A model generated the notes under the pieces. The model searched no databases and was not told the origin of the DNA. It saw only the letters and a program-made list of their open reading frames with translations. A DNA stretch of 64,000 nt, taken from assembly GCF_011397635.1 (NCBI RefSeq), contig NC_064758.1, positions 17,328,513-17,392,512 on the forward strand. The letters are read 5' to 3'. Below are positions 7,472 through 24,700 of this stretch, piece after piece. The stretch is from Epinephelus fuscoguttatus (Eukaryota; Chordata; Actinopteri; Perciformes; Serranidae). How positions within the stretch are numbered: the stretch's first letter is position 1; every line of letters starts with the position of its first letter. A program made the position numbers and the translations under genes.

Positions 7472-10400
7472 CTGATAGAGAAACAAAACACACAGTTTAG
7501 TGGGGTGTGCAGTTACAAGGCAAGGCAACATTTTAAAACAATTCATTTAAGAACTAGAGAATAGAAAATATAAAGTTACAGTATACTAAAACAGGTATAA
7601 AATACAAGAATTTAACTTGTAGCGCAATGTAAGGAATGTATAAATATTTGATTTAAGAAAAGGCAGTGGCAAACATAAAAGTCTTCAGCCTTGATTTAAA
7701 AGAAAATTTGGCAGAACACTGTTCCAACAAGAAGAACAAAACCAGGTGGCAGCCATGACAGCCAACTGTGACCCAGTCTGTCAGCTGTGCCATGAGCTGT
7801 CCTTGGTGATATTGTCCTTCCCAGCTTCCGTACAATCAAGATGGCATAGAAAATAACAAAAATTGTGTCTAATTCATCTCATATCATGCCTAACTTTAGG
7901 TAATCATAACATATCAGATATGGATCAGATGATCCGGTTCAAAATAAGACCAAATATTTCTACGTCAGTTTTTTAGGCATGACGAAGGCCAAATTGTAGC
8001 CTGCAATAGACAGTAAGGCTTTATGTATTTAGCAGAGCTGATTTCCAGAAGACGTGACCCCCTCCAGCCAGTTGAGAGCAGCGAGGAGTCAGTAGTCGAT
8101 GATATAAAACAATCAATAAAACTGTTTTTTCAACAACTGTGAATCACCGCAACCATGACAGATCCTTGATTATACAGTCATGCATGTGCACACAAAATAT
8201 TTGATTGGTCCAGTGAGATTTGCTGCAGACAGACACATGCATGCACACACAATACCAAACACATGATCCCAACTGAAATAATACTGACAATAATAGAAGA
8301 AGAAGAAGAAGAAGAAGAAGAAGAAGAAGAAGAAGAAGAAGAAGAAAAAGAAGAAGAAGAAGAAGAAAGTTAAAAATAATAAAGACTTACACTTGTTCAT
8401 CCCTGGCTTTAACCGATGCGCTCCATCATGCTCCAAACTGAAAAAATGAAGATCACAAAAAGAAATGTTCAACTTCAATAGAATACAAATTAATAACTGC
8501 TATTTGGTGGAACAAACCACCTCAAAGCAACATCTGTATTTATTTATTCTTTTAATCACTTTTTGTGAGGGAAATTTGCTAGTGATTTGTAGCTTCTGCC
8601 GGGCTTGCATATGTTAGCATTAAGAGGTGGAGTAAAGTGATTTTTCAGCTTGTTGGACAGATTGTTTTTGTAAGAATTTGGTCACATTGTATGGAGTGTC
8701 ACAATGTGTAACTCTGCCTCAACATGTGCTTTCTTTATCCTGATAGTATATCCAAATACATGTCAATGCCAAGTGTGATGGGGACATTTTCTCTTCATAA
8801 GAAGGTAATTGAGTGTTTTGGTGACTAGCTTGCTACCTAATAAGATAAAAGACTTGGATTACATTTTGCCTTTGTGTAGATGTAGTCAACTATTTCACTA
8901 TAAGAGTACATATATAACTACACACCCTGACATCTTAACATACCAGAGAGTCTCCAGACTCATATTTGGATCCGCAGCTATATCAGAGAGCATCTTCTTC
9001 CCATCAGCTCCTGGGTGATTGTAACTGAGATCCAACTGTTTCAGTGTGGAGGCATTTTTGGACCTGAGAGCTGAGGCCAGGGATGAGCATCCTTTCTCTG
9101 TCACCTGACAACCTGACAACCTGCAGATCACACATACACTCCTTACTTCAAGAAATGATTTTGCAAGTTTCACTTTATAGTTATCATGTTTTTAATGGTT
9201 ATAATATTTGAGGAAAATGTTTCTACAAATTCAAAATACAGTAAAGGTAAAGTACAAAAGTACTGATGTTGGAAAATAAAGGATATACCAAGTTCATGGC
9301 AGTGTAAAGGACAGATTTTCCAAAGTCCATTAGTATCTATATCAGGACACCTCAGATTTATAGCACATATATGGCCATCTATCACAGAAAATCATGTTTA
9401 ATCATCATTTGCTAAAGTTTCTTTGTTGTCATTTAATTTCATAATAATGTGTTTCCTCAGCGAGAGTTACGTGGTAACATAGCTTCAGGTAGCGTTGCTA
9501 TGGTTCCTTGTAGTTTAACTGTTTTAGAAGGGTCATTTAATCTTTTTTAAAGTGTTCTGTTAAAGGTATAATATGTAGTTTTTCCACATAAAAATGTCTA
9601 AAAATGACAAAATCAATATTATATATTTTGTTTAGTTGTGTACTTTGATTATCAGAAATGTTTCCAACAATTTTTCAAACCCAGATAAATATGAAATATT
9701 AATAAAAGTTACGGACCGTGTCATTAGGTCGCATGTCAATGGCGACGTAACTCCAGTTACCATAGCCATTAATTGAAGGAGAAGAAGAAGCAGCAGACCG
9801 GATGAGACGTCAGAGAATGAACGTTACTGTTGCTAGGCTAAGCTAACTCGTCATGGATCATGATTATGCACTGACGGTTGCTGCACCTTCTGACACCGAA
9901 GCTGTCCCGGTAAACAAGCCGGTAAAACGGAAACGTACGGGTCAACCAAGCAATCCCAGAAGAATCTGGGATAAGAAGAGAGCTAAATCAAGGATAAATA
10001 TTGGTGTGGCCTTTCCGAGATGGAGAGAGCTTCGTAAAAATTTAGGACTACAATTCGACGCCGACCTCGCGTGTGTTCTACTAGACAGGTAAGCAAACAT
10101 CTGGCTGATGTTATCGAAATATTAATCATTTCCACCAGTGTATTGCAAGCACTGCTGCCCGCCGGGGCACCAGCGCTCCGGCCAGCGGTTATATGACTAC
10201 AACTCCCATGATCCCACGCTACTTTGTGACATCATTCAACTCTGTCTTCTGTTAATGCTTTGAGACCCCTAGCGGCAGAAAATTACATATTGTATAGTTT
10301 ACATATAGTTTAAACTGAGAAAGTTTGCTCTGGCCGGTGGGCGGTGCTTGGTTTTTGCTCGACTGTTTTCAGTATGACAGCCAGGTCACAAGCTTGTCAT

Positions 10401-13400
10401 TTTACAGCTAAACAGTACACTAAAATATGTTGAAACATGTTGATAAAAACATCTGAGGAGATAAAAGGCAATGCAGTAACAGAATCTTGATTCATATTTG
10501 ATCAGCACTGTCTAGTTTGAGAGTTTGACTGCAGTTCATGAGCAGTGACTGACATGATTGACAGCTGCATTGGTGACTCTTCAGCTCTGACCTATTTTTT
10601 TGTTCAGCTGTGGTGAATTTTAACAAATGCCATAAGAAGCACTATGAGGAGGCAAAGGAACATGATTTTTTTTTTTCCACAGATTATCTGTCTCATGTAC
10701 ATACCGTCTGGATATAATGGCTGTTTTGACAAAATCCAACAAAAAGTTATTAATGTAAAAGTTACAAACTTTAGCTTTAATGGGCACATTTACAAGGACA
10801 TAGATATTGTGGATATAAGCTTTATCTTAGCTATGGTCTTAGTAAGGACACATGATTTCTATAATTTTCTGTCCAAGCATTTTAAAAATCAATCTAGATA
10901 CAATCTGTATCTGCCAAAAAACTGATTTGGGCTGGCAGCATGAACAAGGACAGAGAGAGCTCAACTGTGTACACATCTTTAAACAGCTAGAATTGATTTT
11001 TAATAAGAAATAATTATTTGTAAAGAAAGCAACACTGTTTACCTTTGTCAAAATTTCAAATTCAGCTTCTAAATTGTCCTTACTGCCTTACTTCCTTACT
11101 TCCTTACTTTGGAGTCATTATTCTACACCAAAACTTCTGCCGCACTACACAATGGACTTTTTTGACTCTAGAATAACTTTACTTAGAAATGCACTTAACA
11201 ATCTCCCATTCTTGTTAATGACTGTTAGTTGGTTGGTCATTATAAAATGCACAGTTAATGTATTGTAAACTTACTTGAGAATCTCCAGTTTACAGTGTAT
11301 ACTCTGGAGGCCATCAGCAAGCATCTGCACACCTGAATCCAGCAGGTCGTTGTGACTCAGGTTCAGCTCTGTGAGATTACAGGATGCGGAGCTGAGGACT
11401 GAGGATGACAGACCGCTACAGGATTTCTCAGAGAGCTCACACCAACTCAGCCTGTAAAAACATTTGTAGGCATCTTTAATAAAGCTCCACTGAAGTCTCA
11501 CCAAATAAAAAAGTGGTCTTTTGGCAAATATTTAGACATCATGGACACTATGTTGTTCTCATGATAAGACAAACTCAATCACTAATACTAGTATTATCAC
11601 AGCACTAATTACTAAGACACCAACAGTATCATGTCATCCCACTGCAAAAAAGTGGATCCACTGATAGCATCAATTATTCCCCAATTTCTGAAATCTCCCT
11701 CTTTAAAAGATCCTGGAAACTCTGCTTGACAGGCAACCATGTGCCAATCCAGAATATAACAGTGCTCTCTAGCCAGAGAGAGTTTTTGACCTTCAGGGAT
11801 AAATAAGGGGGTACCTCAAGGATCTGTGTTGGGTCCTTACTTATTAACAGTCTACATAAACAATATCACTCCAACACAGACTTATAATACCCATTTTCAT
11901 GCAGACTAATAGTCTGCATAATAGAATAGTCTTGTATACATTTGGCTTTTCCTCAGCTCAAGTTACATCATGATTATGTTCTACATTAAACATTTGTCAA
12001 ACATCTGTTTAATCTCAAACGTTTACTGAGTGTCGGTAAGGCAAAATCTGTTTTATTATGACAATGTCATTCATCTTCCTGCCACCCATATATTTATGGT
12101 AATGAAATTAAATTTTTTCAATCGTATAAATACCTGGGATTTTGGCAACAAACCAATCTCACTTTCAAACAGCACATCAAGCAATTGGCATAAAAACTAA
12201 AGATAAAAATGGGTTTGGAAAATGACTGTAAACAGATTCAGCGCCAACTAAGTCATTATTTAACAACTGAGCTTCCACTGGAAGGCTCACCCAACTTATG
12301 ACAAGTTTCACCATGTATATGGATAAAACATGGGCCCAACTTGTAGTCCCGTTAACCACATGACCAGACACACAAGGGGCCTAAATTAAGCAGATTTTTA
12401 GAGTTTGCAGTTACTAAAACAGGACTTATTACAGCCCATTGTTAGCCTACTTCAGGCCCTCTTGGAAATGGTAACCCGCTTTTAGTTTGGAAATAAATAG
12501 ATATACTTTGTATGTAGTGCACTGCAAGATAACAATCATATTTGCAAGAGCATTTATAAGAGAGCATTTAAAAGTACTTACAAAGCAGTTTTGGAGACTT
12601 TGACCACAGGCAACATTCCTAGAAGAACTTCGTCTGATTTCCGGTACTTTTTCAAATCAAACACATCAAACTTCTCATCTGATGTCAGCAGCACAAAAGT
12701 CAGAGCTGACCACTGGGAGGGAGAGAAATTTTCAAATGTGACTGTTTCTGATCGCAGATACGTTTTCACTTCCTCAACAAGAGAGTGGTCATTCAGCTCA
12801 TTCAGACAGTGGAAAAGATTGCAATTCTTATCAGCATCACTGTTCTCTTCTCTGATCTTTCCTTTGATGTACTGAATGGTGTCATCGTTGGTTTCTTTGT
12901 TGTTTTCTGTTTTCTTCAGCAACTCTTGCAGTAGATTCTGATTTGTCTCCAGGGAGAGACCTAGCAGGAAGCGGAGAAACAGATCCCAGTCTCCATTTTG
13001 GCTACCCAAAGCCTTATCCACCGCTATCTTGTAGAAGTCTGCAGCAGGCAAGGCTTCAACTGTTGAAGCAGGCACGGTCAGCAGATTTTCACCTGTGTTG
13101 TTGAATGTGTGAAAGACATAAAAAGCTGCCAGGAACTCATGGATGCTCAAATGGACAAAGCAGAACAATTTTTGTTGGCACGGCCCAGGGCCCTCTCGTG
13201 TGATCTGAGTGAATAATCCAGAGAAGACTGCAGCTTTTGTGATGTCAACACTGCACTCAGTCAAGTTTTCCTCAGTGAAGACAAAGTTTCCTTCCTGTAG
13301 CCCTTCAAATGCCAGTTTCCCCAGAGACATGATCGTTTCCTTGTTCCTGGTATTCCAGCACGAACCTCTCTCAGAGCCTTCGCCTGTTTCATCCTCACCA

Positions 13401-16400
13401 TACTTCACATTAGCCTGTCTGCATTGCAAGACAAGAAAGTAAATGTACATGTCAGTGAGAGTCTTGGGCATTCTTTCTTCTTGGTTTCTGTTCACAAAGT
13501 CCTCCAGAACGTTTGCTGTGATCCAGCAGAAGACAGGGATGTGACACATGATGTAAAGGCTCCTTGATTTCCTGACATGGGACAAGATTTTCTCAGCCAT
13601 AACTTTATCACTGAATCTCCTCCTGAAGTACTCCTCCTTCTGCTCATCATTAAATCCTCGCACCTCTGTCACCCGGTCAACTTTATCAGCAGGAATATTG
13701 TTGGATGCTGCAGGTCGGGAGGTGATCCAGATTTGAGCTTCCGAAAGCAGATTTCCTTGAATGAGGTTTGTCAGCAGTACATTCACTGAGGTTGGCTTTC
13801 TCACTTCTGTCCACTTGTTACTTTCATTGAAGTCAAGCGTGAGGCGACATTCATCGAGACCATCAAGGACAATCAGAATTCTGTACTTGTTATAGTCCGT
13901 TATTTCGGATGTCATCATAGCTGGACAAAACTGGTGAATGAGATCCTCCAAGCTGTGCTCTTGCTCTTTTCTCAAATTCAGCTCCCGGAAAGAAAGTGGA
14001 AACATATAAAATACATCCCCGTGGTCCTCATCCTCAGCCCAGTCCAGCATGTACTTCTTTGTAGCAAATGTTTTTCCAATGCCTGCCACTCCCAACGTTA
14101 GCACTGTTCTAATTTTTGGTTTATTTTCCCCGGACTGTTTGAAGATGTTATTATATTTTATTGATGTTTCTTGTCCCTCTGGTTTGAACTTTGCACCTTG
14201 AACTTGTCTGATCTCATGCTGAACATTGACCTCTCCTCTCTCTCCCTCTATGATGTAGAGGTCTGTGTAGATTTCGTTTAGAAGAGCAGAGGTTTTCTGC
14301 GTATCCATCCCCTCAGGAACATGGGTAAATTGCTCCTTCAGCTGAGATTTGAGCGTGTGTTGACTTTCAACATCAGGCTTACCTGTAAGAAAATATGATT
14401 TTTAAGTTATGTTGGACAGAAATTAGACAATAGTTCAGATAAATTGCTTGAGGTGCAATCATAGTGCAGATCATCAAATGGAAACCATAACATCAAGAAT
14501 TAAGTTGTTGTTTTGTATTTGCTTTGATTAGGTGCACACTGGCCAACTAAAAGTGAAGCAGGGCTTGAAACACTTGAGAAACAGCCTAAAAGAGGCTGAA
14601 TATGAGCAATGTGGTTTTATATTTTATTTTATTATTTTTTATTTTATCCTTGGTTACATTATAGGTGCTTGCTCCAATGACTGGAGGCAACTGGATGAAT
14701 ATGTAATAAAAAAAATGTGTTATTAAAAACAGCTATGTCCCAAACCAATCCTAAGGATTGGAACTGAGGCTGTTCCGTAAATATTTAATGGACTTTTGTC
14801 AATCAACTTCCAAACATTTCTTTACTGTACTCTTCTTTATGGCAGCCTACAGTGCCAGAATTAGCTACATACCCAAAGAAAAAATTACAGTGTGTGAATG
14901 TGAAAATTTCTTCAGCTACACCACTGTGAGTTTGACAGTGAGGTTGGCAAAATACGTATAATCGTTAAGGATCAGGGTCTCAGTTTTCATTCCATGGTAG
15001 TTTTGAGCCGTTTTGATGCTACATAGCCACTGTTTTATTTTGACTAAGACATTTCAGATGTGTTAGGTTTGACTGCACCCCTATTTGTTCAGTTTCCATT
15101 AACAGCCTTCATCCCCACCCATTAGCTTACATCGTATTTCTGTCATCCTGTCGACAGGTGCATCAGGCAGCTTCTTCCGGGAGGTCATCCAGAGCCGGGC
15201 AGAAGGAAGCAGGTCTCCTCTGATGAGGTTTGTCAGTAGCACATCCACTGAAGCTGGCTCTCTGACATCAGTCAAGGTCTTGTTGTTGTCAAAGTCAAGA
15301 GGAGGCTGATAAGCTTCCAATCCATCCAAAACAAATAAAACTTTCAGATGTTCAAAGTTAGAGATCACAAATTCTTTGGTTTCCTTGAAGAAATGATTAA
15401 GAAGTCCCATCAAACTGACTTTTTCTTCTTTTATCAAATTAAGCTTAGAGATGTGAAGTGGAAATACAGCTGCCTCTTCTTTTCCATATATCCTTGCCTT
15501 TGCTGCATCTATCAACCAAGTTAAAATTGACTTATTGTCATTTCTGGCCCACTCTTTTATGAATTTCTGCACATGGAAAGATTTCCCAATCCCAGCTTCT
15601 CCAGTGGTCAGCACAGTTCTGATCTTTTGTCCTTTTCCGTCTTTGAAGATATCAGATACTGAGTTCACTTGGATCACTGACTTTGCCGCAGGACATCCAT
15701 TTTTCTCTTCATCATTGACCTCACCACTTCTGTCTTCTCTAATGATGTGTTCTGTGTGTTTCTGGTTAGGATGATTTAAGTCTTCATCTTGAGTGATTTC
15801 TTTCAGAAACCTTTCTCTCAATGCTGACGCCAGCTTCTGCCGTCGCTTTGAGGTCTCTGAAACAACAATAAAGTCACTGATGATGGACAGAAGCAGCATG
15901 AATCAGTTATCTTTCAGTATCATAACAGTGATTGTTTTGAACATAGATCACTATAAATCATTTATATTACAACACAGTTGTAACAGATAGTCACACATTT
16001 TAAGGTAAGCTATCTTTTAAAAAAATCAGTTTTGTTGTGACACATTGGTTCTCAATGAGAGGAAGTCAATAAAGTTTATAAAATATTTTCTTGTTTGCAG
16101 CTTTGCTGTATTATCTGACCAAATTTCCCAGTATAAGAAAAACATTAAGACATGAAGCAGATTAATATAGTATGAGCTATGAAAATCTGATTCATACCTC
16201 GACATTCTGTCACTTTGTCAATATATTCAGGAGGAATCTTATCAACTCCTGAGGGTTGAGAGATGATCCAGAGATGAGCAGTGGGAAGCAGTTTCCCCTT
16301 GATGAGGTTTGTTAGCAACACATCCATCGTGGCTGGCTTTTCCATATCGGTCATCTCCTCGTTGTTTGCAAAATCCAGAGGAAGTTCATATTTTTCCAGG

Positions 16401-16846
16401 CCATCAAGGACAAAAGCTACTTTACATTTGTCGTACTTGTAAACTCCTTGTTTATCATTGATGGAATGACGAATCAGATCTTTCATGGTTTGAACTTTGT
16501 CTCTTTTTGAATTCAGCTCACTGAAGTTCAATGACACTATCAAATCTATCTCTGTGTTGGAGTTTCCTTTTGCCCAGTCCACCACAAACAAACTTGTTTG
16601 AAATGTTTTACCAATGCCAGCCACTCCTTTCATTAGTACTGTTCTTACTTTCTTTTTCTTCACACCAGAAAAGAATTCCTTAAAGGTTTGTGCTTTAGCT
16701 TTCTCGATTTTGTCAGCTTGTATCTCGTAGATTTCTGTGTCAGTGTCCAGTTTAAGTTTCTCTTCATGCTGAGTGAGGATTTTCTTCTTCAGGTCTGCTG
16801 TGAGTTTGTCTTTGACTTCTTTGTCTAAAGAAATGATTAATGATAA

Positions 16847-16880
<34 letters not shown>

Positions 16881-19800
16881 TGGATGGATGGATGGGTAGG
16901 TAGGTAGGTAGGTAGGTAGGTAGGTGTGTATGTGTGTGTGTGTGTGTTCCTTGTTCAAGTACCTTTGCTGTGTTTGGGCACAGTTTTCTTGGAGGCACTG
17001 CTTGGATAGAAAAAAGACACATTTACTGTGACAAATAATAATGTTTTGTATACTACACACTACTATATACACTTGTGTTTGAGATGAAATGCATCTCTCG
17101 GGCTTCACCTTTACACTGCATAATTTTGGCATATCATTGCTTTGTCTTTTTATCTGTTATAGGTGTAACAATATTTATGCACATGTTTTCCTACTTTGAC
17201 TCAGGCATGAAGTTGAGAGGATCATCCTCAGAATTGTTGTTGGGTGCAGGAGAGACAGGATCATTTTAGTGATTTCACAAAAACAAACATTTTAAATGTG
17301 TGACATTATTGTTGAGCTTCAAGGTGGGAAGTAATTATCTTACTACTCTGACTTGTCGTTCTCTTTAATAGAGTTTCTCTCTGTCTTTGACTCACTCAAG
17401 CCTCATTCCCACCGTATGGTACAGCTCAGCTCGACCCTGTTCTACTAGCTTTCGGTATCAAGCGGTGTTGTAACCAAGACCACTTGAATTGAGAGTCATG
17501 ACCAAGACAAGTAGTACTAACTGCGGTGAGACAGCCACTCAACCTGGCAGCAAATATTTTCCAGTGGTCACTCATGGTACTTCAGCGAAAAAATCCCCTG
17601 CGGCCCATGGAAGTAAACCCAAAAGCTAGAAAACTTTTTTGGCGTGTGCTGCAGGTGAGCTACTCCATTGGAATGAATAGGCACCATTGTGGCACCCAGT
17701 ATCTAAATTAGTTTTTATTAAAATGTATGGCTGCGGCCTGCAGTAAGGCAAAGCTGAACAATCCAGCCCCGCCCACATCCAGTGGGTCACTAATACTGCA
17801 TTTATAATAAATGGGAATTTCAAAAGCTTGTCAATGTCTTATGTATTTAACTTGCTGCATTCGTGACAATCCCAAAGTGTAAGATTTCATTATGTTCTTT
17901 ATAACTTACACAAATGATATATACATTTCTCAACTGTCAGAAAATATACATACCATTTTCACTGCTTTGTCAGTCTTTCCAATATAGTATGTCTGGTTGT
18001 GTAATATGAGTTTTGCATCAGCGTGATGAAGTAATTTAATCTATAAAGTATTTCATTTTTTGGAGTAGCCAAAAACAGACATGCACATCTGGTTGCTCTG
18101 GGTTTTCTTTTTTTTTTCATAAAATGTATTATATCACAAATGTAAAAGTATATTGATAAAGTCCTTAAAATGCTCAGGACAGTTGCTGTGCAGCACTTGC
18201 AGGACACACAATGTAAACAAAAAACCCACTGAATGCTAAATAAGTTGTTTACATCTGGGAACCATTTGTCGTGAGGAGGAAAAAATAGAATAGCAGTAGA
18301 AGAATCTGGTTTGATTTACCTTCAAAATGCAATTCCATATTTCAGTTTTGGAGTGACAGGGTCACAAATATGTTCATGCATGTTGCATGTTTTATTTGAA
18401 TTTCAATTTCTTATGTGAATGAATTATTTTGTTATTGTTTAATCCTTTGGTTTGCTTTTAATGTACTTATTGAGGTGTCGGTTTTAAATATTGGACTCTG
18501 CATGGATAAACTGAACTGTGCAATGTATTATTGATGAACTTTTGAAGACCTGTGTAAGTTGTGGGTTAGTTATAATCAAGTAGGCTCCTGTATACACCAC
18601 TATTTTAAAATGATCATCTTTGATAACTGAGAGTTTTATATTTCATGTAAATATTTTAGGTATAACAGCTAAATGCACTTGACTGAACTTTGAACTAATG
18701 TTTGGTGTGATATTGATGATCTTATTGAAGTCCTGTGAAAGTTATTGGTTAGTTATAGTAAAGTAGACAAGTTAGACAGTTTTTTTTTGTTGTTGTTTTT
18801 GTTTTTGTTTTTGAATAACCCATATAATGTGAGAATCTGCTGGCGCCCAGATATTTAACATGATTTATTCTGGCCCCTATTCAAAAAAGTTTGGACCTTG
18901 TTTATATATATTATACCATGAATAATATATATAATATGTAGTATTTTTATATTATACCTCACTGTTTCGATGTTTTCCCTATAAGCTCAATTCATGTGAA
19001 TGTCTTCGAGCAAGAACTGAGCTCCACTTGTTTACATAAACTCAAATGTCAATATCACCATGATCCTACAATAAACCTCTTTATCTTAGGCTTGGCATAC
19101 ATGGTAAAAACTGAGCCCATTTCTGATCATAATTAGAAGTGGACCAAATTTCAGCGTTGTTGTGCATTGTTTGCCGTGATACAAATCATGACCCAATAAA
19201 ATGCTGATTGATAAACTAATCCAAAGGCATTGCAGAGGTGAATTCAATATTTGGGATTTTTCCTTTGTCTTCTACAAGTTAACAAAAACTTGAAATACAA
19301 TTCCAAGTCCTCTTTCCCTGAGACAGACAAGACCAAGTAAAAATGTGGTCAAATCCTGGACAAGACTAACCTGGAAATCCAGACCCAAATCTAGAAAGAT
19401 TTAGGCTCTGGCTATGAGTACTGAAAATGGCCCAACTCGAGGGGCGGCACCAAGCATACATTTGAAAATATCACTGCACTCAATTAGATAACACTACGAC
19501 CAATCAGAACAATACGTATGACGTATTGAGGGGTGACATATACGCTTAGCTACCAGAGGAGCTAACTGGTAGATTAGACTCTTGCCGTATCCGTCTAACT
19601 CATTCACTGTAGCGGCCAAAGCCGTTTCAAACAACTGGTGTTTATCCGTAGCCATCTTGCAATGTTTACTGACTGATTCCAGACTTCGTCGTCGCAGCGC
19701 TGTCGTCATATGTTTAGCTCACCTCTGGCCTATATCAGATACACTGATGTGATTGTTGCAGTTTGGCTCCAATGGCATGGTTATGAGCATCATTACTGAT

Positions 19801-22800
19801 TCCCAGAGTGACTCGCTGAGCAAATTCAAATTGTGCTCTCGCGAGAACTCTGAATTTCCAGGGTAGGACAAGACTGAAACCTTTGAAAAATGGCCTCAGA
19901 TACTTCAACGCTGCTATCCATAACTTTTGCCAAATGGAAAACTAAAAAGGAGCAAGTCAAGAACTAGTGAGTAGAGCTGTACCATGCAGAGGAAAAGAGG
20001 CAAAACATCCAACATAACCAAAATGTCCTACCCCAGTTCTCCTTCACTTTCCATTGAAACATTGCTGGATACTGGGGAAACTGGTCTCTTTTCCTCAAGC
20101 GGCCTTTAAAACACATTTAATATTCTTTTGCATTGCCAAACAATAAAACTTGTAATAAGTTCACAATATTTTTTAACTTCAAGATGACATTTGCAGTGTA
20201 TTTTCTCCTTGTCTCTGAATCTCTCTTTATGAAAACACAAACATAACCAAAATGTCTTACCCCAGTTCTCCTTTACTGAGGCTGGGAGAATCACCCTTGG
20301 ACCTGTCACTTCTCATGGAAACATCGCTGAGTGCAGGAGATACTGGTCTTTTTGGCTCAAGCAGTCTTTAATACAGATTACAGTTACACACTTAAACATT
20401 TATTAGATCTTTAACAACTGTATCTTTACATTACTATTGGGCTTCAAGTTGTAATTTACAGTATATGTCATTCTACGTCAGTCTCTCTTTTCAGTTATTT
20501 CATCAGTGTTAGACAACACCAACATAACCAAAATATCTTACCCCAGTTCTCCTTTACTGAAGCTGGGAGGTTCACCCTTGGACCAGTCACTTTTCATTGA
20601 AGCATTGCTGGATACTGGGGAAACTGGTCTCTTTTCCTCAAGCGGCCTTTAAAACACATTTAATATCTTTTTGCATTGCCAAACAATAAAACTTGTAATA
20701 AGTTCACAATATTTTTTAACTTCAAGATGACATTTGCAGTGTATTTTCTCCTTGTCTCTGAATCTCTCTTTATGAAAACACCAACACAGACTCAGGCGGC
20801 GTCCCTACAGACCTCCACTACCTTCCATCATTCTCGCCAATGTCCGCTCTTTGAGAAACAAAATGGACTTGCTACACGCTAAGTGCCTTATGGGCTCCTC
20901 TTTTAGGAGGCGTGTGTCCTTGCTCTGTGCGAGACATGGCTGGACGGCTCTTTCCCAGACAGTGAGGTTAGCCTTGATGGCTTCAGGATCATACGGGCCA
21001 ACAGATCTGAACATTCGGGGAAAGTTAGGGGTGGGGGCATGTGTATGTTTGTCAACTCTTGCTGGTGTACTAACATCAAGATACACAGTACGATCTGCAA
21101 CCCGGACCTGGAGTTGCTCACCCTGTCAGCCCGAGCTTTCTATCTCCCCAGTGAGTTCTCGACTGTTCTGTTTAGTTGTGTGTATGTTCCACCAAGCGCC
21201 AACGTGAAGGCAGCAGCCGAGCAAATAGCGCAAAACGCATACGCTATGCTTAGCATTTATCTACTTCCTGTTTACAAGCAGCAGCTGAAACAACACAGAC
21301 AACTGACGCGCAGCACACCCCAGTGGACAGAGGACACCATTGCACATCTCCAAGGCTGCTTTGCATGTACCGACTGGGAAGTCTTTGAGGGAGAGCTGGA
21401 GGAGCAAACTTAAGTCATCACAAGCTACATCAAATTCTGTATAGATACCCTGATACCAGTAAAGACTATAAGAACTGATCCCAATTCAAAACCTTGGATC
21501 ACTCCAAAAATCCAACACCTGTTGAAAAAGAAGAATGATGCCTTCAGACAACAGAACTCCACAGCACTTAAGATTATTAACCGGGACATTAAAAATGAGA
21601 TAATCAAGGCTAAGTTAAATTATAAACTCAAACTGGAACAGGAATTTGCAAAATGAACACAAAACAGGCCTTTCAGGGAGTCAGAACTCTCACAGGACAA
21701 GCCACCAAGCAGACCACCTGCGCATCAAAACCCATAACCTTTGCTAACGACCTTAATCATTTTTATGCCAGATTTGACACATCTGATTTTTCAGCAGAGT
21801 GTGCCAGCCCCACCAGGAGTTGGACTACGAGACCCTCCTGACAGACCGGGATGTCCATCTCCAGCTCACCAAGTACAAACCAAACAAGGCTCCTGGGCTG
21901 GATGGCATTCCAGGTCGGGTTCTGGAATTAACCTCCGTCCTCCACTCCCTCTTCATCCGATCCCTCTGTACCTCCACAGTCTCAGGTATATGGAAAACAT
22001 CAACCGTCATCCGTGTTCCAAAGAAGTCCCACCCATCAGAGCCAAATCACTACAGGCCTGTGTGTCTCACCTCCATCATAATGAAATGTTTTGAGAAATT
22101 AGTTCAAATTATCATCCTGCCATATGTTGTCTCCACTGCTAGACCCCCACCAGTTAGCATGCAAACAAAGGAGAGGTACAGACGATGCGGTGGCCACTCG
22201 CCTGCACTATCTGCTTCAACACCTGGACTCCCCCCGTAACTACGCCAGACTACTCCTCGTTGATTTGAGTTGTGCCTTTAATACAATACAACGCCAACAG
22301 ATGATCCAGAAACTACAGTGCCTCCACGTTCCATCTCCACTAATACACTGGATCCACAGCTTCCTCTCCGGCAGACCCCAGGCAGTGAGGGTCGACCAGT
22401 CCCTGTCCTCCACCATCACGCTCAATACTGGTGCTCCGCAGGGGTGTGTGCTCTGCCCGTTCCTCTACACCCTCTACACGAATGACTGTCAGAGTCCTTC
22501 CCCCACCACACTTTATTTTAAATATGCAGATGACACGGCCATTCTTGCATTGCTGAACAATAACAACTCCTTCGCTGCCTACCAACATTCCATTTCCCAT
22601 TTCAGCACATGGTGCGACAATAACTATCTCCCCCTCAACATCTCCAAAACCAAAGAACTGACTATCAGCCCTCCCAAAACCCTGGCCCCCCTCCCCAGTC
22701 TCTTCACCATCGGGGAGAAGGTGGAGGAGGTGGAGTCTTCCAAATATCTCGGCATCACACTGGACAATAATCTCAGCTTCAATCAACGCACCACGGACAT

Positions 22801-24700
22801 TTATAAACACTGCCAACAGAGACTCACAGCTATACGCAAACTCTGACACCTGTCTGTTCAACCCCAACTCCTCCTTCTGTACTGCAGCACTGTTGAGCCG
22901 GTTCTGTTGTATGGTGCCATCTGCTTCTTCCCCATGCTCATGGTTGTTAATAGAAACAAACTCTTGAAAGTGACCAATCTGGCAAGCAAAATCATTGGCT
23001 TAACTACTCCTAACCTATCTGACAGTGTCACCTCATCTCTGACACGTAAAGCACTTAGAATCACACAGGACCCTGACCATCCACCATCCACTCCACCAAT
23101 ACTTCATTCCCCTCCCCTCCGGCCGTAGGCACAGGCTACCTCTGTGCAAAAAAGCCAAGTTCAATAAGAGTTTCATTCCTACATCTATACGTGCCCTAAA
23201 TGTATGAATAGCATCTGTCTGACAATGTTCCAGCCTGTGGTGTGTTTGTATGTCTATGTAATTGTTAACGTCATGTAACCCCCATTTGTCTGTTGACTTT
23301 TTGCAGGAATAACAAAACAGGCACTTTGCAGGCTCCAGCTTCTTCAGAATGCTGCAGCTAGAGTGATAACCAGGACCAAAAAATACTGTATGAGCACATC
23401 ACTCCCATCTTAATTTCTCTTCACTGGCTTCCCGTGAAGCAAAGAATTGATTTTAAGATTTTGCTTATTGTTTTTAAAGCTATGAATGGTGTAGCTCCAC
23501 CTTATATCAAGGACATGCTGGCTGAGTACACACGCCAGATAGATTCCTGAGATCTGGAAGTAGAGGCCTTTTCACTATTCCAAGAATATATTCTAGATGA
23601 GCTCATGGTGCTTTTAGTAACTATGGTCCGATTCTTTGGAATTCCTTACCACAAGGCCACAGGTCTATTACATCAACATCCACTTTTAAACGCAGGTTAA
23701 AAACATATCTTTTTTCACAAGCTTTTACTTAGACGTGTGTGTGGTACAAACCAGCTGTACCATTATTTTTGTATTATTGTTAATATCATGTTTCTACTCT
23801 TGTACTATGCCATGTCATTGTTGTTATGTGTTTGTTTTTATATGTATGTTGTGTTTATTTTAAGCACATTGAGCTATGCTTGTCATATGAAATGTGCTAT
23901 ACAAATAAATTTGACTTGACTTGACTATGTCAGTCTCTCTTTTAAATTATTTTATCTGCGTATGAAAGCACCAACATAACCAGAATGTCTTACCCCAGTT
24001 CTCCTTTATTGAAGCTGGGAGGTTCACCCTTGGACCAGTCACTTTTCATGGAAGCATTGCTGGGTGCAGGAGATACTGGTCTTTTTGGCTCAAGCCATCT
24101 TTAACAAGGATTACAAATACAAACTTTAACACTGTCACATTCATCCCCTCTGTCCACATCTTCAGTCACATTCCCACATCAAGACCATTAACTGCCATGC
24201 CCTACCTGTCCACTAACTGTTACCACCTGTATCTGCCTGTTACCTACAGCCTAATTTGGTTTTCTTGATGCCTGGAAGTTTCGCTATAAATCACTGAAAT
24301 GCCCTGGCTGTCTGCATTTGGGTCCTTCCCTTGCTGCCTCTCTCCCTTACTGCACCATAACAGAACGACCTGACCAGCCATGCAGCAGATGAGCAATTTA
24401 ATGTGGTGGAATGAGCATGCAACAGCCAAGATATTATAAAGTGCAGTCTAGGCTTTTAGATAATGTGATTTCTTTCTCATGACACTGAAATCACTATACT
24501 TCCCTAGATAGGATGATATTTCGCAAAATACATTATTCAGTTATGGCAGATAGTAAAATGGCATTTTTGTGAGCGCTCCATTTCTGAAAATGATCAGGGC
24601 CAAACACTGTACAGGTGTACAAAGTTTCATGCTTTTAAGAAAGAAACAAAACATTTACTTACTTGCCAGTTGATGTGGCCTCAACCTGTTCCTGAGACAT
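6927..24700 (-). CDS. NLRC3-like NLR with three tandem NACHT modules (gene A, 13 exons)
   Basis: Predicted cytosolic pattern-recognition receptor of the fish NLRC3-like family. Exons (high to low coordinate): 24663-24700, 23994-24098, 20542-20646, 20261-20365, 20032-20103, 16963-16997, 16198-16824, 15131-15856, 12582-14382, 11275-11451, 8944-9120, 8391-8437, 6927-7471. Every junction has an AG acceptor and GT donor and the phases match; the total is 4,560 nt including the TGA. Domain order: 12-residue start, N-terminal repeats (about 13-141), NACHT-1 (154-362), NACHT-2 (363-604), FISNA-NACHT-3 (605-1204), two LRRs (1205-1322), linker, PRY/SPRY (1339-1519). Family members normally have one NACHT, so the extra two are unusual. 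The alternative is that NACHT-1 and NACHT-2 are relics skipped in the mature mRNA. The single modules are secure; the full chain is inferred from splice sites. Confidence 0.72.
8295..8367. repeat. GAA microsatellite in a gene A intron
   Basis: About 23 GAA units with one AAA interruption, 24 bp from the donor of the 47-bp linker exon. On the transcribed strand it reads TTC, a long polypyrimidine run. Confidence 0.95.
8391..8437 (-). CDS. Gene A linker exon before B30.2
   Basis: 47-bp exon (TTTCAG acceptor, GTAAGT donor) encoding [15 protein letters not shown], the short basic linker that normally precedes PRY/SPRY in this family. Phase 2 in, phase 1 out, as needed. It lies 24 bp from a long GAA microsatellite in the next intron. 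Confidence 0.78.
8944..9120 (-). CDS. Gene A LRR exon 2
   Basis: 177-bp exon, phase 2 in and out, CTGCAG acceptor and GTATGT donor. Encodes [18 protein letters not shown] and [19 protein letters not shown]. Only two LRR exons could be found between the NACHT and B30.2 exons. Confidence 0.88.
9562..10301. mobile_element. DNA transposon or MITE-like element with a short open frame
   Basis: Imperfect TIRs: the left end AAAGGTATAATATGTAGTTT matches the reverse complement of the right end AAACTATACAATATGTAATT. It holds a 79-codon frame at 9853-10092 (+), rich in basic residues ([15 protein letters not shown]) and containing [18 protein letters not shown]. That frame runs into a GTAAGC donor. The frame may be a captured exon or part of the element; family not assigned. 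Confidence 0.55.
9853..10092 (+). CDS. Short basic ORF inside the element at 9.6-10.3 kb
   Basis: Starts ATGGATCATGATTATGC and encodes [16 protein letters not shown], a KRKR-type basic patch, then [16 protein letters not shown] and [11 protein letters not shown]. The last codons overlap a GTAAGC donor, so the frame may continue by splicing; no partner exon was found. Not recognised as a known domain. Confidence 0.3.
   Translation: MDHDYALTVAAPSDTEAVPVNKPVKRKRTGQPSNPRRIWDKKRAKSRINIGVAFPRWRELRKNLGLQFDADLACVLLDR
11275..11451 (-). CDS. Gene A LRR exon 1
   Basis: 177-bp exon, phase 2 in and out. Ribonuclease-inhibitor type leucine-rich repeats: [17 protein letters not shown] and [11 protein letters not shown]. 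The length is typical of the one-exon LRR units of NLRC3-like genes. LRRs are the presumed ligand-sensing or autoinhibitory part. Confidence 0.88.
11640..12480 (+). pseudogene. Decayed LINE reverse transcriptase fragment
   Basis: Between the gene A NACHT-3 and LRR-1 exons, opposite strand. [20 protein letters not shown] is the reverse-transcriptase motif around [10 protein letters not shown]. Further on, [20 protein letters not shown] matches the usual C-terminal RT region. Several stops and frameshifts break it. Confidence 0.75.
12582..14382 (-). CDS. Gene A FISNA-NACHT module 3 (full length)
   Basis: 1,801-bp exon from CTTACAG acceptor to GTAAGT donor. A canonical FISNA ([27 protein letters not shown]) precedes [15 protein letters not shown] (P-loop near residue 702), [17 protein letters not shown], Walker [18 protein letters not shown], sensor ITSRPAA, then [16 protein letters not shown] and the helical and winged-helix part with [18 protein letters not shown]. 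This is the usual size and content of the large exon of fish NLRC3-like genes. It drives ATP-dependent oligomerisation in the NLR family. The internal ATG at 14306-14308 is not the start; the exon is open upstream to the acceptor. Confidence 0.93.
14383..15130 (-). other. Intron between NACHT modules 2 and 3
   Basis: About 750 bp of AT-rich sequence with no recognised repeat or coding exon. Its minus-strand ends are GTAAGC and CTTACAG. Confidence 0.6.
15131..15856 (-). CDS. Gene A NACHT module 2 (truncated type)
   Basis: 726-bp exon, phase 1 at both ends (TTTCAG acceptor, GTAAGC donor). A FISNA-like region ([17 protein letters not shown], then [13 protein letters not shown]) leads into [15 protein letters not shown] (P-loop about 448-455). 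Walker B reads [14 protein letters not shown], so the second acidic residue of DGLDE is A. Sensor 1 keeps the arginine (MTSRKK). An extra stretch of about 20 residues ([18 protein letters not shown]) sits after the WAR motif, where the other modules have none. Like module 1 it stops after MTEIR. It has an open frame and a length close to module 1, so the two may be sister duplicates of a shortened module. Confidence 0.72.
16198..16824 (-). CDS. Gene A NACHT module 1 (truncated type)
   Basis: 627-bp exon, phase 1 at both ends (TTTAG acceptor, GTATGA donor). It encodes a diverged FISNA-like lead ([17 protein letters not shown]), an intact P-loop GVAGIGKT (about residues 220-227), a Walker B-like [13 protein letters not shown], the conserved [19 protein letters not shown] segment and a sensor-1 region reading ISQPS, where module 3 has TSRPA. 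It ends right after VTECR, so the rest of the NACHT (winged-helix part) is absent. The usual DGLDE is DGLEK here. ATP binding is plausible; hydrolysis is doubtful. No stop or frameshift is present. Confidence 0.72.
16846..16948. repeat. Compound microsatellite filling a gene A intron
   Basis: CA repeats, then GGAT repeats, then seven TAGG units and TG repeats. Together they occupy most of the 138-bp intron (16,825-16,962) that precedes the NACHT-1 exon. Confidence 0.92.
16963..16997 (-). CDS. Gene A 35-bp linker exon
   Basis: Small exon with a CAG acceptor and a non-canonical-looking GTACTT donor. It carries [11 protein letters not shown] and changes the phase from 2 to 1, exactly what is needed to join the repeat exons to the NACHT-1 exon. 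The intron that follows is only 138 bp and mostly microsatellite. The exon is called mainly because it reconciles the phases. Confidence 0.45.
17195..17264 (-). pseudogene. Degenerate N-terminal repeat exon
   Basis: The minus strand retains [18 protein letters not shown] and a phase-2 GTAGGA donor, recognisable as the same repeat. The place where the other copies have their AAAG acceptor reads AAAAT, so no acceptor is visible, and several codons at the exon start are missing. Probably a dead repeat exon. It was left out of the gene A model. Confidence 0.5.
17265..19357. other. Long intron segment with repeat fragments
   Basis: No coding exon recognised. About 17,400-17,830 looks like a dispersed teleost repeat (CCACCGTATGGTACAGCTC). 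About 18,500-18,780 holds two imperfect copies of a block of about 195 bp ending TTAGTTATA-TAAAGTAG. 18,850-18,905 resembles one end of the hAT-like family seen at 39.4 kb (CTATTCAAAAAAGTTTGGAC). Confidence 0.45.
19368..19865. mobile_element. 498-bp insertion with 10-bp TSD
   Basis: Flanked by GGACAAGACT at 19358-19367 and 19866-19875. Its ends carry inverted repeats (CCTGGAAATCCAGA and, reverse complement, CCTGGAAATTCAGA). The duplicated left copy near 355-370 has one similar site and no insert. A TSD of 9-10 bp is usual for Mutator-like elements, but no transposase is present. Confidence 0.7.
20032..20103 (-). CDS. Gene A N-terminal repeat exon 4, shortened (24 aa)
   Basis: Only 72 bp: an internal 33-bp deletion removes the middle of the repeat but keeps the frame and both ends ([13 protein letters not shown] then EGELG). 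The donor is GTAGGA rather than GTAAGA, so splicing may be weaker. Exon start and flank match the 20542-20646 copy closely. Confidence 0.55.
20261..20365 (-). CDS. Gene A N-terminal repeat exon 3 (35 aa)
   Basis: 105-bp phase-2 exon, AAAG acceptor and GTAAGA donor; core [20 protein letters not shown]. Same repeat family as its neighbours. Being symmetric, such exons can be gained or lost without disturbing the reading frame. Confidence 0.68.
20542..20646 (-). CDS. Gene A N-terminal repeat exon 2 (35 aa)
   Basis: 105-bp phase-2 exon with AAAG acceptor and GTAAGA donor; core [20 protein letters not shown]. The exon start and its upstream flank are almost identical to those of the shortened exon at 20032-20103, showing a recent local block duplication of about 540 bp. 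Confidence 0.68.
20790..23290 (+). pseudogene. L2/jockey-type LINE, broken ORF2
   Basis: Remnants of the AP endonuclease ([18 protein letters not shown]) with an internal deletion after [12 protein letters not shown], then RT motifs in changing frames: [81 protein letters not shown] and [16 protein letters not shown]. The YADD core is intact, but at least three frameshifts separate the blocks, so it is inactive. It sits between gene A repeat exons 1 and 2, opposite in strand. Confidence 0.88.
23291..23930 (+). mobile_element. Second LINE 3' end (L2-like)
   Basis: [20 protein letters not shown] is the typical end of ORF2 in fish L2-type LINEs. It is followed by the 3' tail GCTATACAAATAAATTTGAC and TTGACT repeats at 23,906-23,925. 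It joins directly to the first LINE, so the two inserted as separate events or recombined. Confidence 0.7.
23994..24098 (-). CDS. Gene A N-terminal repeat exon 1 (35 aa)
   Basis: Symmetric phase-2 exon of exactly 105 bp, AAAG acceptor and GTAAGA donor. It encodes one copy of the serine/proline-rich repeat (core [20 protein letters not shown]). Short repeat exons of this type precede the FISNA-NACHT exon in several groups of fish NLRC3-like genes. Their function is not established. The exon is separated from the other repeats by a LINE insertion of about 3.1 kb. Confidence 0.7.
24663..24700 (-). CDS. Gene A start exon
   Basis: Short first coding exon: the ATG (24698-24700) opens a peptide [12 protein letters not shown], and a GTAAGT donor follows after two bases of the next codon (phase 2). 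The gene B exon at 1568-1605 has the same length, donor and almost the same peptide, which supports this start. The spliced reading continues straight into the first N-terminal repeat exon. Confidence 0.7.

Follow-up and report, generated by a model that had tools for sequence, protein, structure and literature searches.

Animal nucleotide-binding leucine-rich repeat receptors (NLRs) are treated as one-NACHT proteins that need to find one another for ring building. NLRP3 and NOD2 have one NACHT each, and in the NAIP-NLRC4 and APAF1 wheels the ring is built by side contacts from one nucleotide-binding domain to the next, each subunit being a separate chain. By contrast, a gene on the minus strand of a 64,000-nucleotide stretch of the genome of the fish Epinephelus fuscoguttatus (hereafter, the window) is predicted to place several such cores in a single chain. 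Judged by its domains, this gene is an NLRC3-like fish NLR in which two extra core exons, here called alpha and beta, precede a complete FISNA-NACHT-WH-HD2-LRR-B30.2 receptor (WH, winged helix; LRR, leucine-rich repeat), the NACHT of which we refer to as main.

The closest described genes are those of the fish NLR-C or NLRC3-like (NLR-B30.2) family. In the available portion of the zebrafish account, these genes share N-terminal repeat exons, one large FISNA-NACHT-WH-HD2 exon, LRR exons and a B30.2 exon, within a single exon-intron structure (PMC4852459). The window gene resembles them in having FISNA ahead of NACHT, followed by WH and HD2, C-terminal LRRs (the first LRR exon scoring above the Pfam cut-off and the second below it) and B30.2. 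However, it departs from the pattern of one large NACHT exon per gene, and, because two further NACHT exons lie ahead of the large one, we regard it as a variant of NLR-C rather than a standard member. Group 5 of the goby NLR-C genes likewise has B30.2, and the end of the main exon in the window is close to (L/M)PV(V/I)KASxK(A/V), being one residue off; extra cores are not mentioned in the accessible part of that account (PMC6988351), although the mudskipper protein P0062 (P numbers denote database proteins throughout) has the order alpha-beta-alpha-beta-main. Among plant genes, the rice NLR Pib has two NB-ARC domains, both with an intron 87 nucleotides (nt) after the kinase-3a motif, near the cut seen here, according to the part of the source available (PMC4917536). 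Pib differs in being a plant gene with NB-ARC rather than NACHT domains, and an independent origin is presumed; Pfam scans of the window exons and selected database proteins gave NACHT matches and no NB-ARC match. As for inflammasome sensors, with their N-terminal PYD or CARD, the comparison was made on P0013, the ortholog from the giant grouper Epinephelus lanceolatus, in which Pfam matched neither domain, the N-terminal exons of the window not having been scanned alone. In the literature searched, mostly outside subscription journals, we found no animal NLR with several NACHTs and no earlier account of the same layout, a finding that a preliminary description of this locus made from the sequence alone had named as one that would refute it. 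Within that literature, the layout is new for animals and has its known plant analogue in rice Pib.

The gene spans 24.7 to 6.9 kb of the window and was rebuilt as 13 exons that are bordered by AG/GT and join in matching phase, giving a coding sequence of 4,563 nt and a protein of 1,520 amino acids (aa) with a stop at the terminus only. The preliminary description had likewise arrived at an uninterrupted frame, of 4,560 nt and 1,519 aa. It had also proposed three NACHT exons, each open, joined in matching phase and containing a P-loop and an LDGL(E/D)-type Walker B, and the coordinates, phases and Pfam matches all agree with this proposal. The three exons, all open and bounded by AG/GT, are as follows:

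16198..16824, minus strand: alpha exon (module 1; 627 nt), a helix and a complete nucleotide-binding core without HD1, WH or HD2, as modelled with AlphaFold2; phase 1-1; NACHT 68.1 bits; Walker B LDGLEK
15131..15856, minus strand: beta exon (module 2; 726 nt), a second truncated nucleotide-binding core, its fold taken from the Perca ortholog region; phase 1-1; NACHT 63.5 bits; Walker B LDGLEA
12582..14382, minus strand: main exon (1,801 nt) with FISNA (PF14484, 85.8 bits), complete NACHT (114.7 bits), WH (NOD2_WH, 54.1 bits) and HD2 (NLRC4_HD2, 116.7 bits); phase 1-2; Walker B LDGLDE

The Pfam cut-off for NACHT is 26.7 bits. A domain search of the model, as suggested in the preliminary description, thus finds NACHT in all three exons, whereas FISNA, WH and HD2 are matched in the main exon only and in neither alpha nor beta. 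The view that the gene encodes one receptor with two extra truncated NACHT modules is further borne out by P0013 (1,495 aa), which has three cores in the same order, identical alpha-beta and beta-main junctions and 93% identity to the window across the alpha-beta part.

When the alpha exon of the window was modelled alone with AlphaFold2 and an alignment, it gave a five-stranded core (mean predicted local distance difference test score 89.1; predicted template modelling score, pTM, 0.88), the fifth strand of which finishes at residue 207 of 208; the exon therefore stops where the nucleotide-binding core would give way to HD1. The AlphaFold2 model of the Perca ortholog (1,145 aa, 41 sequences) contains three core folds with a helix before each, and the helix of the next module begins directly after the fifth core strand both in alpha (217-223) and in beta (457-463). 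According to these models, each extra module extends no further than the final strand of the RecA core, HD1, the winged helix and HD2 being absent. The best solved-structure matches of both the alpha exon and the ortholog model are NLRP3 and NOD2, from which alpha differs by the lack of these same domains; in the Foldseek search with the whole ortholog model, the main NACHT dominates, making it uninformative on the extra modules.

With the alpha-beta part of the model as the query, 7,964 proteins were retrieved, of which the best 120 were taken. Cores in these proteins and in the window were located with a profile built here, those above 60 bits being counted, and the complete ones were assigned to classes by tree. 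The triple layout, the conservation of which the preliminary description had left to be checked, recurs widely: 74 of the 93 species (window included; one label truncated) have an alpha or partial core, then beta, then main, and 63 of the 93 have the strict alpha-beta-main order. At the protein level, alpha-beta-main or partial-beta-main accounts for 58 of 121 sequences, and another 29 carry between four and seven cores at close spacing, some of them partial, with main as the last; three join a multi-core set to a second gene model, a complete main core is missing from four, and 14 consist of ordinary NACHTs joined together (main//main models). Pfam found three NACHT stretches in each of P0013, Perca P0026 and cod (Gadus) P0091 and seven in Xiphophorus P0005, all four with one FISNA, one WH and one HD2. 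Six truncated cores ahead of the complete NACHT, seven in total, were observed in Notolabrus P0001, Xiphophorus P0005 and Cololabis P0006 (one partial in Cololabis). Such proteins are already present in public databases, mostly under the name uncharacterized, and a domain survey of fish genomes may record one such gene as several NACHTs, which would affect gene counts.

Two trivial origins of these arrays were considered. Chance open frames are ruled out by the Pfam scores and by conservation over many species. Fusion of neighbouring genes by gene predictors does not account for the alpha/beta arrays, given that their 245 short gaps measure 49-157 residues and that a single FISNA-WH-HD2 set was found in four of the four proteins scanned. 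The recurrence of the layout in many spiny-finned fishes suggests some function for the extra cores.

Position in the protein, which provides the independent check on the classes, agrees with tree class for 345 of 375 cores (alpha for 113 of 131 upstream cores, beta for 98 of 107 penultimate ones and main for 134 of 137 last ones). In a second, maximum-likelihood tree of 114 sequences, alpha (32/32), beta (27/27) and the main cores of these genes (26/26) form clades with ultrafast bootstrap values of 100, 98 and 100, respectively, the unity of the classes being partly by construction, as their labels derive from the first tree; alpha and beta fall together against main and ordinary NACHTs with a support of 98. 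On this phylogenetic evidence, alpha and beta are two old classes. Their sequences change faster than that of main, yet retain class-defining residues. Across 72 proteins, the median identity to the window amounts to 67.9% in alpha, 65.1% in beta and 74.5% in main, and the mean entropy (61 species) is 1.17, 1.21 and 0.81 bits, respectively, whereas, in the VTExR motif at the module end, the fourth residue is Cys in 61/61 alpha and Ile in 61/61 beta cores and Val in 98% of 61 main cores.

With regard to age, cod belongs to the Gadiformes and Centroberyx to the Beryciformes, both within Acanthomorphata. A second search, with the cod protein as the query, yielded 20 new proteins among the best 120, 17 of them non-acanthomorph by name (catfishes, a salmonid, a characin, a loach, eels and a mormyrid) and three acanthomorph. 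None of the 40 cores of these 20 proteins falls within the alpha+beta clade (240 cores, support 0.95), and all are of the ordinary type, FDGLDE with ITSRP or ITTRP. A layout ancestral to all teleosts was rejected on this ground, for the best 120 matches of each search. Within the two lists, no alpha or beta core was seen outside acanthomorphs, and the origin of the two classes probably lies at or before the base of this group. We are highly confident in the structural and evolutionary part of the explanation developed here.

Residue counts were made on one protein per species, with classes by tree (main, n = 82; alpha, n = 94, from 65 species; beta, n = 91, from 78 species). In main, the P-loop, the Mg Asp, the FRELN Arg, the last Walker-B Glu and the sensor-1 Arg are each present in 82/82 cores and the Asp preceding that Glu in 81/82; the intact P-loop, Mg Asp and sensor-1 Arg, together with the WH match, are features of signal transduction ATPases with numerous domains (STAND). 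Alpha retains the P-loop Lys and the Mg Asp in 94/94 cores and a strict P-loop in 81/94, but keeps the sensor-1 Arg in only 11 (Gln instead in 83) and the FRELN Arg in five; D is changed to E in 83 cores, the last Walker-B residue is K in 45 and E in 35, and at least three of the four positions are altered in 81. Beta has Lys and Mg Asp in 89/91 cores each, a strict P-loop in 44/91, the sensor-1 Arg in 71/91 and Ala as the last residue in 48/91, so that, with respect to the strict P-loop and the sensor-1 Arg, decay is partly complementary between the two classes.

These positions can be related to human receptors. In the alignment of the main exon with NLRP3, FRELN falls on CREVS and LDGLDE on MDGFDE, and the positions of the FRELN Arg and of the last two Walker-B acids align with NOD2 R334, D382 and E383. 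In the accessible portion of a study of NOD1 and NOD2 (PMC4158908), NLRP3 R260 and D303 are equated with NOD2 R334 and D382, R334Q/W and E383K are autoactive variants of NOD2, and R237Q and D287E are hyperactive variants of NOD1. The overactivity of NOD2 is ascribed there, as a proposal, to blocked ATP hydrolysis, which would trap the active state, whereas NOD1 E288K, the counterpart of NOD2 E383K, has severely lowered signalling. The roles of the second acidic residue and of the sensor-1 arginine are covered in the available part of another source, in which a few human NLRs also lack that arginine (PMC2323615). Going by these alignments, alpha is altered in its normal sequence at two sites whose substitution overactivates human receptors; at a third site, it often has a change that activates NOD2 but silences NOD1. 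By analogy, either NOD effect might transfer to an isolated core.

The alpha and beta exons, both of phase 1-1, can be skipped in frame. The preliminary description had named transcripts that always skip the upstream modules as a point against the triple layout, and the database-predicted isoforms of Lates and Toxotes give a mixed answer, modules being retained in some and skipped in others. For instance, the predicted isoforms X10 and X50 of one Lates gene share 1,714 residues without a mismatch and are set apart by two blocks, one of 661 residues that comprises three modules and one of 48 residues at the N terminus, and a predicted pair from one Toxotes gene, 97.8% identical where aligned, differs by blocks of 210 and 202 residues, approximately one module each, and by an N-terminal block of 35 residues.

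The assembly of E. fuscoguttatus itself (1.047 Gb, 26 contigs; window at C7:17328513-17392512) was searched with the alpha exon. Two alpha copies were found, the other matches listed being at most 53% identical, and, as far as the matches listed for this alpha search go, alpha is confined to this locus. The second copy belongs to a tandem neighbour (L021), in which alpha and beta exons are present and the frame of the main exon is broken between the P-loop and Walker B. On the minus strand at 552-1073, at the left end of the window, lie N-terminal repeat exons that probably belong to this tandem copy.

The best explanation as a whole, which we consider rather probable, is that alpha and beta are ATP-binding, hydrolysis-impaired cores that are spliced in or out and tune the assembly of the full NACHT in cis. 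Under this explanation, alpha and beta would be folded regulatory pseudo-NACHT cores. Alpha would bind Mg-ATP and hydrolyse it poorly and, because it lacks HD1 and the winged helix, could presumably not be locked in the closed ADP form, so that, tethered beside the main NACHT, it might act as a partner that is always open. Once the main NACHT has opened, its lateral oligomerisation surface could be offered or blocked by the tethered cores, which would thereby set the timing and extent of ring growth, and splicing would alter the number of cores without breaking the frame. The roles in binding, assembly and signalling are suggested by analogy, and we put assembly control in cis, taken by itself, slightly short of an even chance, a seed and a brake being about equally plausible forms of it. 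An internal regulator and a pre-formed oligomer, both put forward in the preliminary description, are retained as leading ideas, whereas nucleotide titration, its third suggestion, is implausible for a low-copy receptor given the millimolar concentration of ATP.

Several observations weigh against this explanation. The relative placing of modules in the Perca model is unreliable (pTM 0.61), so that no core-core contact follows from it. The loss of hydrolysis would not be uniform, because an acidic second Walker-B residue is kept in 36/94 alpha cores, and ATP binding by beta is doubtful given a strict P-loop in fewer than half of its cores; moreover, the lowered signalling of NOD1 E288K implies that the lysine of alpha need not mean 'on'. 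Species also differ, as 12 of the 121 proteins have two close cores (beta-main, alpha-main or partial-main) and one, from Symphorus, is alpha-alpha-main, and the close relative E. coioides is represented among the matches listed only by ordinary joined NACHTs; because the list is ranked by likeness to alpha-beta, such counts are not frequencies. The related database proteins are predictions, as far as their names show. Furthermore, ordinary NACHTs can come to lie in short-range pairs, or be mispredicted as such pairs, independently of alpha and beta: P0126 from a catfish has a pair with a gap of 151 residues (two FISNA, two NACHT, one WH and one HD2), P0132 a pair with a gap of 211 residues and two WH, and, in the first list, P0105 (gap 164) and P0110 have an ordinary NACHT 151-211 residues ahead of a second one. 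Finally, the ratio of non-synonymous to synonymous substitution rates (dN/dS) between the two tandem copies is 1.1 for alpha (3 synonymous and 12 other changes), compared with 0.23 for beta and 0.26 for main, although a value based on 15 changes between copies so young decides nothing.

Assembly control could take either of two forms, each of which we regard as possible but unlikely when taken singly. In the first, the alpha modules, freed of inhibition by HD1 and the winged helix, would be naturally ATP-locked cores forming part of a covalent ring that seeds assembly, with splicing setting the number of cores, from one to six; if so, this would be an NLR with the assembly step encoded in a single chain. 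Because NOD1 E288K is inactive, the seed was weighed lower and its opposite, a dominant brake, higher. In the latter form, degenerate cores would cap the main NACHT and the receptor would be a negative regulator. The absence of PYD and CARD matches from P0013 fits a brake, as does the statement, in the part of a review that was available, that piscine NLRC3 binds RIP2 via NACHT domains and suppresses NOD1 signalling (PMC12436146). Many alpha modules have the lysine that, as E288K, silences NOD1, but two other alpha changes sit where substitutions activate NOD1 or NOD2 (R334/R237 and D382/D287), again in the accessible portion of that study (PMC4158908). A recurring lineage with one to six extra cores per chain, each ending at the core boundary and with its catalytic residues altered in a concerted manner, offers a natural experiment on the core alone, apart from HD1, the winged helix and the LRRs, in which nucleotide-state control of ring growth becomes directly testable.

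An improbable alternative to assembly control is that the extra cores are decoys or traps, which, by their likeness to the NACHT core of other NLRs, would lure pathogen factors directed at NACHT domains or, acting in trans, would bind such NLRs and dampen them. The faster divergence of alpha and beta relative to main and the variable number of cores would both be expected of a decoy. Bait, however, needs neither the P-loop Lys and Mg Asp, found in every alpha core, nor the steady order of modules, with beta as the penultimate core in nearly all cases.

Still less probable, in our estimation, is a separate short product, a transcript ending in the beta-main intron and giving a free alpha-beta protein that would act in trans. 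The preliminary description had noted that poly(A) sites between the modules would count against a single receptor, and on this point the two introns differ: the 748-nt beta-main intron contains five AATAAA/ATTAAA hexamers, compared with 1.9 expected, whereas the alpha-beta intron contains none. P0009, P0017 and P0084 consist of alpha and beta modules only, as a short product would, but may be incomplete gene models, and most of the listed models continue into main. That the modules are degenerate exon relics, rarely or never translated and joined by gene predictors, is very improbable: the layout is known from predicted gene models only, one module is missing in some species and the dN/dS of alpha is near 1 in the young tandem pair, but from cod to perch the frames stay open and residues specific to each class persist, that at the fourth position of VTExR for example, and the predicted fold is compact.

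The remaining exons of the window gene, which complete the receptor on either side of the three NACHT exons, are as follows:

24663..24700, minus strand: exon N1, proposed start codon and first 38 nt; open, with donor GTAAGT; P0013 opens with the same 13 residues
23994..24098, minus strand: exon N2, 35-aa N-terminal repeat, phase 2-2 (exon model)
20542..20646, minus strand: exon N3, N-terminal repeat (exon model)
20261..20365, minus strand: exon N4, N-terminal repeat (exon model)
20032..20103, minus strand: exon N5, N-terminal repeat with an internal deletion; P0013 has the same short form
16963..17000, minus strand: exon N7, 38 nt, phase 2 to 1, the least certain exon; its start, SASKK, is backed by P0013, whereas its end differs
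11275..11451, minus strand: LRR exon 1, phase 2-2; LRR_6 27.9 bits on the enclosing frame (cut-off 23.4)
8944..9120, minus strand: LRR exon 2, phase 2-2; LRR_6 20.4 bits on the enclosing frame, under the same cut-off
8391..8437, minus strand: short bridging exon ahead of B30.2, phase 2-1; sequence retained in P0013
6927..7471, minus strand: B30.2 (PRY-SPRY) exon including the stop codon; SPRY 35.0 bits, PRY 28.4 bits

A further small exon used in P0013 (17195-17263, minus strand) is present as sequence, but no in-frame AG acceptor was found for it in the window; it was therefore omitted from the model and is probably skipped in the window gene. This exon and the 38-nt exon N7 are the two weak spots of the model and are less certain than the rest.

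The intron between exons N2 and N3 harbours a remnant of a non-LTR (long terminal repeat) retrotransposon (20776-23125, plus strand), with a reverse transcriptase domain at 22103-22843 (85.7 bits). Elsewhere in the window, two open frames on the plus strand each have a long hydrophilic tail. The frame at 59110-59916 matches HTH_Tnp_Tc3_2 (35.9 bits), the one at 57068-57415 matches helix-turn-helix (HTH) models below threshold only, and no catalytic domain was matched in either; the two frames possibly represent transposase DNA-binding domains co-opted for another use.

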